Source: Protonemura montana | Lineage: Eukaryota > Arthropoda > Insecta > Plecoptera > Nemouridae | NCBI GenBank assembly: GCA_947568835.1 | Contig: OX387605.1 | Location: forward strand, 11,660,418 to 11,724,417 | DNA: 64,000 bases | Direction: 5' to 3' | Shown: positions 7,523-13,900 of the stretch, in pieces | Layout: every line of letters begins with the position of its first letter | Position numbering within the stretch: position 1 is the stretch's first letter | Notes under the pieces: generated by a model | Databases searched by the model: none | The model's input: the letters and a program-made list of their open reading frames with translations, nothing else | Told to the model about the DNA's origin: nothing | Program-made: the position numbers and the translations under genes

Positions 7523-7914
7523 GCTCTACGGTTATGAAGCATGGGAAATAAACCAACTTAACTGCTAACGATATAATTCCCGCCCGAAGTAACCAACATC
7601 TCTCCTAATTACCAACATGCTTATCTTCTTATATTATTATTATTTTTTTATTTGTGGTGTTTAACGACGCACTGTTTTGACATCTGGCCATGCGGTACTG
7701 GTCTAATGGCGTCGGTGAATGAGTAGATGATATCACGATGTAATCCTCGTGATTACTCTAATTTCACCACCACATCCATGCAATCATAGATTGCATTCTT
7801 GCTGAGCCTGTACACAGGCCGAATTCCCGAACACGATGGTTAGCTACCCTGAACTTCATAAACATAGGTATCACCACGGCCACCGGCCACCCTTGACTTT
7901 CTACACTCACAAGC

Positions 7915-8898
7915 ATTTAACGTCATAGCAGCTGAGAACCACTTTTAACGTGACGACCGGAGTGCACCAGGTGATCTCTTGTTAACTTAAGAAGGGTTGT
8001 TTTCCGATTCAACAATTTCCAATGCACGTGTTCACACACGTGGTCGACTGCAGCCGAACACTTGCCAGTATATAAAGTCCTGTTTTTGATGGCATACCAG
8101 CCAGAGTAGCCAGTACGACGCCAGTAAGAAGACCTCCACGTTCGTCGTCGTCGAATAATAACATTTTGTAAAATCACGGAGTTGGACTAGACTTGATCAG
8201 GACTGGACTGTTATGGGTACACCAGCCAACGTTTAGACTTGCAATTCTGACTGTTCTAAGTACACCGAATTCTTAGCTCCCTGTTCTGATTGTTATAAGT
8301 ACACAGAACTCCTAGATTCCGTTCTGATTGTTATAAGTATACACAGGACCTTAACTTCTCGTTCTGACTGTTATAAGTACACAGAACTATTCCTCCCCGT
8401 TCTGATTGTTATAAGTACACAGAACTCTGAGCTCCCCGTTAATTTCTCGTGCTGATTGTTATAAGTACACAGCACGCTTGAAATCCCGTTCTGATTGTTA
8501 TAAGTACACAGAACCTTATTCAATTTGCCAATTTCCCAACAAGTCTAGTTTACTCCGCTTTCCAACTAAAGTCTGATTTTAAACTGAGCAAGTGCGACGC
8601 TGCAAGAATCCATTCCCCGAGTTACTTTATAATAATATATACTTGTAAAATCTCAGGTATACATTCAGTGATTGTCTGTAACCACTTTTATACATCTCTT
8701 CATTTATTTACTACAGTGTCATTTACTACACTTATGATCTGTTCCAATTTTTCATTACCCATGTTTCTCAATAAAATCCATTTATAAATTCCACGTAACG
8801 TTTGTAATTCACTGTAAAAATTAGGATACCGCCCGTCGAACCCTCGTTTTGCTTTCCTCCGAACTTTCGGTTTTCATTGAAATATCTAGGGAAAACCC
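7915..8898. repeat. LTR-like dispersed repeat, copy A (with hairpin array)
   Basis: Homologous along most of its length to 9530-10145, except for the expanded array at 8243-8514. Shared landmarks, in order: GTGATCTC-TGTTAACT, a CACACACGTGG block, a TATA-like element (TATATAAAG at about 8072; TTATAAAA in copy B), TTCCAATTTTTCAT, an AATAAAAT signal, then GATACCGCCCGTCGAAC and CTTTCCTCCGAACTTTCGG. TATA box plus polyA signal resembles an LTR, but no TG..CA ends, target duplication or coding sequence were seen. The class is inferred. Confidence 0.7.
8243..8514. repeat. Seven-unit hairpin array with covarying stems
   Basis: Units at 8243-8271, 8283-8309, 8321-8349, 8361-8387, 8399-8425, 8449-8475 and 8488-8514. 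The typical unit is GTTCTG, a 15-base loop (ATTGTTATAAGTACA) and CAGAAC. One unit has GTGCTG with CAGCAC, another ATTCTG with CCGAAT, and another a G-T wobble (CAGGAC). Both arms therefore change together, keeping the 6-bp stem while the loop stays conserved. Spacers of 11-23 bases vary freely. Confidence 0.9.
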
Positions 8899-9265
8899 AT
8901 GATAATGATAATAAGAATGATGATTAACTAAACCTAGCCTAGAAGGAAGTAGGGGAAACCCGGTGCAGGCACGTAGCCTACTCCTGGCGAAGAGCACCAT
9001 GGGGACCACCGGCTTAACGTCCCTTCCGAAGGACGGTACAACTCGAACAGCAGAATTCCTCCACAAATCCATGCTGTCGAGAGGTTGATAAGCAATTGGC
9101 GAATGAAGTTGCTGAACTATTTTGCACCCCTCCAACCTTTCTCCCAAACTGAACTGGTATGTGTCTGATGGTCACCCATCCAATACCTGACTCAGCGCAA
9201 TGTTGCTTAAATTAGGTGATCTAATGAGAACCGGTGTTTCCAACACGCCAAACCGTTCGGTGCTT
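8899..9265 (-). repeat. 5S rRNA-derived SINE (SINE3-like)
   Basis: On the minus strand, 9262-9160 closely resembles 5S rRNA: CACCGGTTCTC, GATCACC, TTAAGCAACATTG and the box C text TTGGATGGGTGACC, in the right order and spacing. A body of about 260 bases with GGACGTTAAGCCG and GCCTGCACCGGGTTTCC follows, then a tail of ATT/ATC-type repeats at 8899-8925. This 5S-head, body and short-repeat-tail layout is that of SINE3-type elements. The tail abuts the end of repeat copy A. Confidence 0.8.
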
Positions 9266-9370: not shown

Positions 9371-9529
9371 TCGTAACAAGTAGTATGGCCAAATATCTGA
9401 ACGCCATCAAGCGAATAGAAAATTCCAGTAACAGCGCCGAGATAGAGGGATTTGTCGTAGCATTAGCATTAAAAAACATCAACTGCATTTAACTTAATCA
9501 CTTTTACCGTCACTAGCATCTAACATCAT

Positions 9530-10145
9530 ATCTGTGAACTGTCATGTTTAAAACCACGTCGTGGATTCCAGGATGCATCAAGTGATCTCATGTTAACTAA
9601 ATAAGAGTTGTCTTCTGACTCAACATTGCACACACGTGGACGACTTTTGCAGCAGCACGTGTCATTATAAAAAGTTGATGTACGTGTCACACATAGACAT
9701 TTCATCTTTAGACTAGACGTGATCACGCTTGGATTATTATCGATATACAGAAATTTGTTCAACTTGCCATTTTTTCACTAAGTCAAGTATTCTTTGCTGT
9801 CAAACTAAAATCTTATTTCAATCTGTGCAAGTGCAGTGTTGCATAAGTCCATTCCACTGGTGAGCCGTATTTCTATTATTATATTTACTTGTAAAAATCT
9901 CAATTCTCAATTCATTGATTGTCCGTAACTTCTTTTATATTTCCTTTCATATATTTATTAAAGTGTCATTCACTAAAATTATCACGTGTTCCAATTTTTC
10001 ATCAACTCTATTTCTAAATAAAATACATTTATAATTTCAATATGTAACGTGAGTAATTCAGTTACAATCGGGATACCGCCCGTCGAACTCTCGTATTGCT
10101 TTCCTCCGAACTTTCGGTTTTCATTGAAATAACTAGCGAAAACCC
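9530..10145. repeat. LTR-like dispersed repeat, copy B (contracted)
   Basis: Diverged copy of 7915-8898 in the same orientation. At the site of copy A's hairpin array it has one degenerate unit (about 9731-9755, ending ATACAGAAAT). The end block GATACCGCCCGTCGAAC and CTTTCCTCCGAACTTTCGG is nearly identical in both copies. Confidence 0.75.
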
Positions 10146-10929
10146 ACGATAATTTTATATGTGGAATCGCGGAATCGGAATTTTTATTATTTTCCGGGTG
10201 GAATCGAAATCAGAATTTATATTTTGTGTAACATGGTGTCGGAATCGATAAACATAAAAATTCCGGTCCCTGATTCTTACCGCATTTTCTCGTAATGCAC
10301 GTCAGACAAATTCCCAGTGTAACTAGAAGTTTCTTTTGTCACGGCCAAACTATCGCTGCATACTGGAAAACCCAAACCAGCCGACACGAAAAAGCTGCTG
10401 ATTTTATGGAATTTATTCTCTTACTTGTTATTGTCACATTATTACACCTTATTTGGGCCCTGCATTGGCCCCGCGGTGACTGCCGTCAGCCACCGCAGCC
10501 CAGTCGACTTCCAAACTACTTACTGTATTGTGTAAAAGCATTTTTTCTCACGATTGGGAAAAATAAGTTGCCCATGGCGGCCATACACATAATTTAAGTG
10601 GGCGGAGTCACTATATTGCTGACGGTTGATGGAGTTCATATTTGGAGCGTCTTGCATCGCGATTATTGGTTGCAGGGGGTGGTAAGCAGGATAGCCCAGT
10701 GAGATTCAAAAATTAGTACCGTTGATTGCTATTTAGAGCGCGCTGTCTGCTACGAGAGTAGCAGATAGCTTTAGCGTTCCAGGTTTTTGATAATGGCCGG
10801 CGGCTATGACGTCTTTAGCGTCAGCTCTGACGTCTTTAGCGTCAGTAGAGGCAGAGCAACAAGTGCTAGAAGTGTTAAAAGCTGTGGATGATATTTACCA
10901 GAACTCTAATTAAAGTCTGAAGTGGTGCT
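10146..10929. other. Upstream region of the P-family transposase
   Basis: No gene was recognised. It holds GAATCGGAAT-type low complexity (10160-10270), the motif TAGTACCGTTGATT (10714-10727) and two tandem copies of an 18-bp near-palindrome (10807-10824 and 10828-10845). No TATA box stands out. If a mobile element surrounds the transposase, its left end should lie here, but I could not find a convincing terminal inverted repeat. Confidence 0.5.
10807..10845. repeat. Tandem TGACGTC..CGTCA repeats upstream of the transposase
   Basis: An 18-bp unit, TGACGTCTTTAGCGTCAG, occurs twice with period 21. Each copy is an interrupted palindrome (TGACG and CGTCA arms) containing a CRE/ATF-like TGACGTC core, about 85-125 bases before the start codon. 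It could be promoter or transposase-binding sequence; neither is shown. Confidence 0.7.
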
Positions 10930-13900
10930 ATGGGAAAGGGCACGGGTCGTGTGCAAATGATTTGCAAGTATAGGGAGTGCACCAATACTCATTTGAAGGA
11001 CCCGGCATTGTCTTTTTTTTATTGCACTAATAAAGACCAAGCACAACGCGATGCCTGGTTGACCCGTTCCGGCAACGAGGATTTGGTGGGTTCAACTGCG
11101 GAACATTTGAAAGCGAAGGGGTTTCGTTTGTGTGCTATACATTTCGAGAATAGCGAGTTCGTTAATATAAGAAAAAATCGGTTGGTCAAGAATGCGCTTC
11201 CTAAGCTGTATGCTGCTGAAAATGATCATGATGTCATTGACATTGCCAAAGACACCGACACTGTGGCAGGTGAGGGAATCTGAGGTCCTGGCATACACTT
11301 TATGTTCCAGTAAATAGCCATTACTAGTGGGTACTACACTCTCCTAGCCTGTAGCTAATATGGACTGAAATTCGATTGCAGAATCGTCACAAGATGATAG
11401 TCCAGTTGCCATGTCTGAGGCAGAGTTTGTTGGTGATGGCATGGATGCTGCTGGGCCATCTTCACCATCAGTCTCCTCTCACCAGACTACACCATTTGGT
11501 AAGTTTAAAATCAATCTATGCACATCCTCCTTTCACTATAACTTTAAATTCAGTACATTCAAATGCCAATAACCTGGGAGTTCTTATTGTATTTGTTCAT
11601 TTATAATTTTTAGTCATTCACAAAAGAAGAGGCTCTATTCTCGGAGAGTTGGGGTACAGTCTAGGTGAGCGCACACCGAGAAAGAAAACCCTGCTGTGCA
11701 AATACAAGAAAGCTGTGAAGAGGGTGCACCAGTTACTCAAACAGACTTCGCTACAAAAAGATAAAATTAAAGCTGTGGAGAAATTGAAATCTGCGCCAGC
11801 ACTGGAGAGGCTTATCTCCGACACAGAAACCTTTTCCCCTGCCATGTCGTCCTTCATCTTGGGAGATCTTCGGAACCGCAACCGGCCAATAAAGTCTCGC
11901 AGGTGTGTAAGCAACGGGTGGAAATAATCTTATAATTATCTGTTCGAGCTTGTTTTAACAACAAATTTTGACCTATAGGTGGAATTTGCAAGACAAAATC
12001 TGGGCACTGGCCATTATGAAGCGAAGCCCTCGGTGCTACGAATATATGCGCAAAATAATTACTCTGCCGAGCCCGAAAACATTGCGCATTTTATTGGACA
12101 ACTTGTCGTTTAAAACGGGCCTAAACCAAAAAATTCTCGCTCATCTTGCAACACGGGCGAGTAAGATGAGTGAGAGGGACCGATGCTGTGTTGTCCTCTT
12201 TGACGAGATGTCCTTGCGCTCGGGCATCTACTATAACGAGAGCGAGGACAACGTATCAGGTAAGGAAGACTACATCAAGTTGTCTGATTTTGATTAAATG
12301 GTATTAATACAATAAATCAATATTTGACTAAAATTCATTTTCAGGGTTTGAAGACTACGGCCACCTTGGCACAACACGAGTCATCGCCAATCATGCCCTT
12401 GTTATAATGGTTCGAGGACTTGCCAAAAGGTGGAAGCAACCGATTGCTTATTATTACACATGTGACACCGTTCCTAGTGACATTTTGGCAAAGTTGTTGC
12501 GGCATGCCATCAGTGCGTTGCTAGGCATTGGCTTAAATGTTGTGGTCACAGTGTGTGATCAGGGCCCCACCAACCGCGGAGCAATCCGGGAGCTATCGGA
12601 TGCCACACCTGATGGCTCGAGTGAGACATTTTTCGAGGTTGATGGCAAGAAGATTTTTGTACTCTTTGATCCTCCTCATCTCTTAAAATGTATGAGGAAC
12701 ATTCTTCAGAAAAACAATGTTACCTGGTGGGATGAGGTCCAATCGTGCTTTAAAACTGCCAAGTGGGAGCACCTGGAAAGGTTTTACGAGCTTGATCAGC
12801 TGACAGCAAGAATGGCTATCAAGCTGACGGCAAACCATCTGAAACCAGAAGGGTCATTCAAGATGCGCGTCAGTTTGGCAGCCCAGGTCCTGAGCCACAC
12901 GGTTGCTGCAGGGATGCTGACCATGGCCACTTGGGGGGATGGCAGCGTTTTTCCAAAGGAGGCCATGCACACTGCTGAGTTTGTGGAGCTCTTGGACAAG
13001 TTTTTTGACAGTGTCAACGGCTCCACACTGCACCCTGATCGGGGAAAGGAGCTGCGTTGTGTTCTGTCCAACCAATCTCCGCATCTGCAGTTCTGGGTTG
13101 AGATGCGAGCTAAAGTCCTAGGCTGGCGATTCACCAACTCTCACACTGGACGGGTAAGCTTTATGATCTACCAGTCTGTTAGGTACCACATTTTGCTGTT
13201 ACAGGTAAATAAATCTATGTAGGTTATTACATTGACATATAATTAACCTTTTTGCAGAAGCTAAGCCCACCAACAGTCACGGGTATTCTTGTCACCATTG
13301 TTTCTTTAGTGAAGTTGTGGGACTACCTGAGGACTGAAAAAGGCTTTCGCTACCTTTCCTTGAGGAATCTTGACCAGGATGCTCTGGAAAACTTGTTTGG
13401 GACCATACGCCAACATGGCATTTGTAATGTGAACCCAACGACAGTGCAGTTTGCTGCTGCCCTGAAGACAGCAACCATTACCAACCTGAGCAGCTACAGG
13501 TCCAGAGGAACGAACTGTGAGCGTGACAACGACCAGCTGCTCAGCGACCTGCGGGCTCTCCTCGAGAAAAAGGATGCCTCTGTTACACCTTCAAAGGTAA
13601 TTTTAATGTTTATGCACCAAACAAATATGTATGGTTGCTGATATTATCTTTATGAGCATGGTAACTCATTACTCATTTCTTGTAGGTGCTGCGACCATCA
13701 GACAGGGCCACCACAAATCCTCGTCTGCTTGCGGTACCAGTTGCCTCGCGAGAAGAGGACCAGCTCACGGACCTGCGGAGACTGCCAACCGCTTACGTAT
13801 GCGGCTACATTGCCAAGCGCCTTTGCTTAGTCATATCATGCACCGAATGCAAGTCGCTGATCTTGACGCACGAGCTGACTGAAGACCACCTCTTCATTTC

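Follow-up and report, generated by a model that had tools for sequence, protein, structure and literature searches.

The window analysed here, a 64,000-nucleotide stretch of contig OX387605.1 of Protonemura montana, carries a solo LTR of a Ty3/gypsy-like retrotransposon, a relic that is probably inert, and inside it a row of eight hairpins at 8200-8514. The original prediction had placed seven hairpins at 8243..8514. All of these were found at 8243-8514 when the sequence was read, but the count was too low, because an eighth unit, u0, lies upstream. The features are as follows.

7727..7730, forward strand: target-site duplication ATGA, left
7731..8904, forward strand: solo Ty3/gypsy-like LTR, 1,174 bp, ends TATCA...TGATA; the sharp ends are common to the copies, and an empty paralogous site is found in L031
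8069..8077, forward strand: TATA box TATATAAAG, by sequence; present too in L076 and L077
8200..8228, forward strand: hairpin u0, GGACTGG, loop ACTGTTATGGGTACA, CCAGCCA; five of six inner pairs, or six with one bulged A
8244..8270, forward strand: hairpin u1, ATTCTG/CCGAAT (CAGAAT in most other copies)
8283..8309, forward strand: hairpin u2, GTTCTG/CAGAAC
8321..8349, forward strand: hairpin u3, GTTCTG/CAGGAC, one G-T pair; 2-base loop insertion in the window copy
8361..8387, forward strand: hairpin u4, GTTCTG/CAGAAC
8399..8425, forward strand: hairpin u5, GTTCTG/CAGAAC
8449..8475, forward strand: hairpin u6, GTGCTG/CAGCAC, 7 bp counting the outer C-G
8488..8514, forward strand: hairpin u7, GTTCTG/CAGAAC
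8770..8775, forward strand: polyadenylation signal AATAAA, by sequence
8905..8908, forward strand: target-site duplication ATGA, right
9480..10151 (left edge approximate), forward strand: second LTR from the same superfamily, older than the first; its one remnant unit, at about 9727-9752, is unpaired

Results

The array and the LTR that holds it

The near-constant 15-base loop and 6-bp stem described for the units hold in general; the exceptions are unit 1, where the right arm CCGAAT breaks one pair, and unit 3, where a 2-base insertion unique to the window copy among seven aligned copies gives a 17-base loop. The loop of unit 1 is ACTGTTCTAAGTACA, and that of unit 4 has C at base 2. Differences between stems were paired as claimed, with A-T at pair 1 in unit 1 and, at pair 3, G-C (unit 6) and T-G (unit 3). 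The 23-base spacer of u5 looks like two spacers fused after the loss of a unit. The loops of most units contain the palindrome TTATAA, and TGT and ACA within the loop are able to pair, which offers an alternative form with 9 pairs, a 2-base bulge and a 7-base loop. A coding array was ruled out because the 38-bp period is not divisible by 3. A known RNA family was ruled out by a scan of the window with Rfam 15 at the gathering score, in which the array had no match and the only hit was 5S rRNA at 9142-9261. This 5S-rRNA-like sequence (reverse strand, 57.1 bits) belongs to a dispersed repeat interrupted by the LTR, and has copies in L031 and L048.

Copies of the LTR begin TATCACG and finish CCATGATA. 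Five independent sites have both ends and unrelated flanks, and at four of them a 4-bp target duplication was seen by eye: ATGA in the window, AAAT at L039, CAAG at the block comprising L034, L036, L041 and L044, and CAGC at L045. The flanks of L048, inspected in the same way, had none, and L033, L040, L042 and L043 are not simple solo copies. Locus L031 has the host repeat without the insertion; there the flanks of the window LTR are joined through one ATGA, and 375 of 418 letters are identical. We expect the border of U3 and R about 30 bases beyond the TATA box. Since the array lies between the TATA box and AATAAA, it should lie in R and is probably transcribed.

Affiliation of the family

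The window's solo LTR has no pol beside it. We place the family in Ty3/gypsy (Metaviridae) on sequence grounds, namely the pol order of a sister copy, a primer-binding-like site, a purine tract and the short target duplication. A putative autonomous partner was sought from L043 to contig C12, where insertions obscure the element, and then in subfamily B. In the sister copy L074 of that subfamily, four pieces of pol scanned separately matched aspartyl protease (1.4e-4), RVT_1 (1.3e-30), RNase H, H2C2 (1.7e-20) and rve (5.4e-16), and the order protease, RT, RNase H, integrase is that of Ty3/gypsy. At 5 places, the primer-binding-like site TGGTGGCAGCGGTGGGAT is present without a mismatch 4 bases beyond the LTR end, and the control gave none; the remaining 53 of its 58 matches, with 2-3 mismatches, are mostly unrelated, and many fall in a satellite of C15. 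One of the five places, C5:409088 in subfamily B, has a gag-like frame in which a CCHC motif was recognised by eye; the piece of it scanned with Pfam gave no match. It is followed by an open frame of 1,459 codons, the one scanned in four pieces as above. The purine-tract-like GTGGGGGTGGT stands just upstream of three copies (L033, L040 and L042), and a 27-base motif from the LTR end has 89 matches in the genome at up to 3 mismatches. The inverted ends TGTTRNR...YNYAACA of animal Metaviridae are absent from these LTRs, which end TATCA...TGATA; exceptions among Drosophila Metaviridae are reported in the part of PMC3601003 available to us, from which the motif appears to be usual rather than defining. 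A DNA transposon with inverted ends was ruled out by the integrase-bearing gag-pol, the primer site and the purine tract.

Several other elements were observed around the family. Fusion glycoproteins of Monjiviricetes (chuvirus-like) gave matches of 9.4e-83, 1.1e-26 and 3.5e-17 to open pieces near its LTRs (L070 4082-5391 and L040 9010-9501, both reverse strand); at the loci inspected, we found neither a tie of these pieces to the element nor a capture by gypsy. Gypsy fragments beside such genes have been reported, with no clear gypsy capture in the text that we had of PMC10084718. Transposase-like frames with Pfam TNP-like domains occur at 12332-13219 of the window and at L069 5243-5998 (reverse strand), with a second copy inside a C12 locus of the LTR family. 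Near the ends of contigs C3, C5, C11, C12, C13 and C15 there are many subfamily B LTRs, as well as a block (L034 and relatives) that exceeds 9 kb and has one LTR, as if these were part of subterminal repeats; on C15 three copies are spaced 26,175 bp apart.

Copies in the genome and number of units

A search of the 258-Mb genome for the exact 15-base loop gave 103 matches, compared to 2 for a reversed-pattern control, so the loop array is not a product of chance. The 100 matches listed fall into 19 places, and each of the 18 outside the window that were fetched has part of the same LTR; the genome search that had been proposed for the motif therefore leads, among the matches listed, to LTRs of this family at all 19 places. 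The other 3 are consistent with three additional units read in the array on C16 (L048). Two hairpin-like relatives of the units (GTTCTG...CAAAAC) lie outside any family LTR at L045 4208-4245 and 3712-3745 (reverse strand), and for the latter only a 57-base flank matches other places.

Counting u0, the number of units varies from 1 to 23 across the 19 places. Most of the complete A-type copies have u0 to u7 in common, with stems GTTCTG/CAGAAC except for u1 (ATTCTG/CAGAAT) and u6 (GTGCTG/CAGCAC). L036 has 15 units and L044 has 23, for the most part near-identical repeats of 38 bp, while the 20 units of L048 form a higher-order pattern that includes several recombinants with mismatched arms. Subfamily C (L076 and L077), which looks older, has three hairpins, and u1 is retained in subfamilies A and C and in L033. 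Among 20 short pieces taken from other LTRs, 17 belong to type B, whose single hairpin is ATTCTG/CAGAAA, and the other 3 have one AGTTCTG/CAGAACC unit. Subfamily B, in which an open gag-pol is present, keeps this one imperfect hairpin, and the long array is thus not indispensable. A tandem repeat of about 104 bp in 7-8 copies is found in subfamily B upstream of the TATA box, beside an open gag-pol (L071, about 85-876; C5:408 kb); repeat expansion has affected a different part of the LTR in each of two subfamilies.

As had been claimed, the repeat at about 9.5-10.15 kb of the window has only one decayed unit, the remnant at about 9727-9752, whose arms were unpaired by eye. The conclusion once drawn from this, that the array expanded in one copy, is not supported in view of the range of 1-23 units over 19 places and of the three hairpins already present in the older-looking subfamily. 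Instead, at least two types of LTR with single units look like contractions by deletion between units rather than ancestors, because they appear to join the left arm of an early unit to the right arm of the last. In subfamily B the unit is flanked on the left as u1 is and on the right as u7 is; in the second LTR of the window the left side is like u0 and the right like the last unit. A single unit at C4:2629459, judged from the unit alone without its surroundings, may be a third case.

Pairing and covariation

Altogether 144 units were found, and the exclusion of 3 outside LTRs left 141. All six pairs are perfect in 105 of these, 9 more are paired with wobble, and 27 have a mismatch, many of the last being recombinants in L048. 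Both wobble pairs and A-C mismatches, looked at for strand, are present among the 141. The 21 distinct arm pairs form a mean of 5.33 of 6 pairs, compared to 4.32 (sd 0.20) with shuffled arms (0/20,000), a result inflated by related rows. At the level of unit types, arms pair at 48/48 positions within units, 36/42 across spacers and at a mean of 4.91/6 with other units, u0 being entered with the arm CCAGTC present in 3 of 10 A copies. Under random placement of the right-arm changes, the exact P was 1.7e-3 without u0 and 2.5e-5 to 4.8e-4 with the five observed versions of u0; an earlier estimate of 1 in 200,000 had used the best-paired A version of u0, seen in 1 of 10 A copies. The evidence for covariation comes to about four independent events, with P of 2e-3 to 2.5e-5. 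Among 14 hairpins picked by hand, a choice that biases the result, 6 of 10 pairs change on both sides and the covariation score is 0.340, compared to 0.134 after shuffling.

Compared with the other units, u0 has changes on both sides of the stem at as many as four of the six pairs. At C1:5166955 it reads GGCTTGG/CCAAGCC, fully paired and unlike that of the window; the u0 of two other C copies has one mismatch each, and 7 of 10 A copies have GGACTGG/CCAGCC, with five of six pairs or six with a bulged A. Stem changes found in a single copy were compensated in 0 of 6 cases, and the one change common to L039 and L040 was two-sided. Stem positions that vary independently had been named as the case against the idea of paired changes. 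Such variation was found in single copies after insertion, but not in the differences shared between copies. Uncompensated changes are expected of dead copies, and so the shared paired differences are unaffected.

Divergence of stems, loops and spacers

We compared units u1-u6 in seven of the 19 places with an equal layout (the window, L032, L035, L039, L040, L042 and L045). Between like units across copies, stems differ at 40/1512 letters (0.026), loops at 64/1890 (0.034) and spacers at 48/1680 (0.029): dead copies decay evenly. Between unlike units within a copy, the values are 179/1260 (0.142), 99/1575 (0.063) and 508/1252 (0.406), respectively. In these counts the copy pairs and unit pairs are not independent and the homology of spacers is weak; spacers are only slightly more alike than when shuffled (0.517). 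Even decay between copies combined with uneven divergence between units suggests that a constraint probably acted on loop and pairing during the active life of the element, and that the constraint was lost after insertion. The neutral baseline is not clean, because subfamilies contrast: A copies diverge by 0.049-0.094 outside the hairpins (spacers and flanks) and by 0.010-0.052 in them, whereas in two C copies the loops reach 0.133 (6/45) against 0.074 outside; this comparison of the subfamilies is too small to carry weight.

Folding

Folding of single units gave z of -1.37 to -3.18. The whole array folded only slightly better than shuffles as RNA (z of -1.57, with 6 of 100 shuffles equally good), and as DNA z was -2.58. 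The fold of the whole array consists of nested helices among interchangeable arms, not of separate hairpins, and folding alone is therefore no proof of local hairpins. Pairing within units is instead argued for by the arm sequences of u0, u1 and u6.

Discussion

With modest confidence, we suggest that the array is an RNA stem-loop element that folded in the element's RNA while the latter was active. Arm letters vary while pairing and loop stay, which favours a single strand folded on itself, in the simplest case the sense RNA, over a plain DNA site. Carried in R, the array would be found close to each end of the transcript. It would consist of successive 6-7-bp stems that share one conserved 15-base loop, or take the bulged form with 9 pairs and a 7-base loop. 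The shape of loop and stem would be recognised by a partner that binds them, with the Gag/nucleocapsid of the element itself or an RNA-binding protein of the host as the best candidates, and several units would raise the binding strength. Genome packaging or control of expression are perhaps the likeliest uses, with trans-activation as a further candidate. Units would be gained and lost through unequal exchange or slippage, and the constraint would end after insertion.

Selection is not the only process that could keep arms complementary. A reverse transcriptase or DNA polymerase that switches template in a near-palindrome may rewrite one arm from the other, so that mismatches vanish in one step, and such events have been proposed to create and maintain RNA stems (PMC8794818, available in part). 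The two-sided differences of u0, at up to four of six pairs, are simpler as one event than as many. However, the loop, which is not palindromic overall, is the best kept part between units (0.063, compared to 0.406 for spacers), which template switching leaves unexplained; nor were any of the 6 single-copy stem changes repaired after insertion, although reverse transcription was over by then. We regard this explanation as unlikely, but the claim that paired stem changes indicate selection or a copying mechanism on a folded strand stands only as far as the paired changes themselves and the keeping of loop and pairing above spacers, the two causes being inseparable here.

An array without function is the least probable to us, and would be quite surprising: slippage would have multiplied the units of an LTR minisatellite, in which the spacers lacked homology from the start, or the hairpin spread on its own as a module. 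Arrays of 1 to 23 units, the near-identical 38-bp units of L036 and L044, the higher-order pattern of L048 with its mismatched recombinant hairpins, and spacers little more alike than shuffled ones (0.406 and 0.517) would all suit such a history, which however explains neither the paired stem differences nor the retention of u1 in subfamilies A and C and in L033. We also think it rather improbable that a transcription factor or an insulator protein bound the units as clustered DNA sites just downstream of the promoter, with the complementarity of arms secondary. The model for this is the insulator of Drosophila gypsy, a Ty3/gypsy element in which some twelve short repeats, set apart by spacers that vary, are clustered in a 5' part that is transcribed, as described in the available part of PMC2374998, and the expansion of the repeat of about 104 bp upstream of the TATA box in subfamily B is in line with it. 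Yet DNA sites should keep their letters, and the Su(Hw) sites have no paired arms, whereas here the arms vary (GTTCTG, ATTCTG, GTGCTG, GACTGG, GCTTGG) and complementarity is kept; the core TGCATA of the Su(Hw) consensus was absent from the units read.

The RNA stem-loop reading has counterparts in better known systems. Retroviral R stem-loops, such as the lentiviral TAR and those of gamma- and betaretroviruses, resemble the array, in the accounts available to us, as stem-loops in R downstream of the TATA box, and TAR has a bulge below its loop comparable to the one possible in the array units. In HIV-2 the TAR hairpins are duplicated. The array differs in its up to 23 near-identical units, in its loop and in its invertebrate-type metavirus host element, for which we know of no trans-activator. 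A stem-loop just past the start site has been described as a conserved feature of LTRs (PMC2664473, seen in part). Packaging and dimerisation hairpins of Ty1, Ty3 and retroviral psi also lie near the 5' end of the RNA. The packaging sequences of Ty1 and Ty3 are said to be not precisely defined in the portion consulted of PMC4974528, and kissing loops are described for Ty1 (PMC5454406, in part). Most array loops hold the palindrome TTATAA, but that of u0 does not, which weakens the candidate role of kissing through this palindrome.

An array of this kind in a Ty3/gypsy LTR was not described in the papers found by a search of the literature. More tentatively than the reading itself, we propose that a metavirus LTR with a multi-copy, covarying array of R stem-loops, from 1 to 23 units with loop and pairing kept, may represent a tunable, multivalent cis-acting RNA element. 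If this is true, the dead LTR copies would form a natural record of how a repeated RNA element gained, lost and re-paired its units, and the corresponding unit across different copies would serve as a built-in neutral control. Such a record could be used to examine whether selection or template switching produces the paired stem changes, and why the leaders of retroelements multiply their binding sites.
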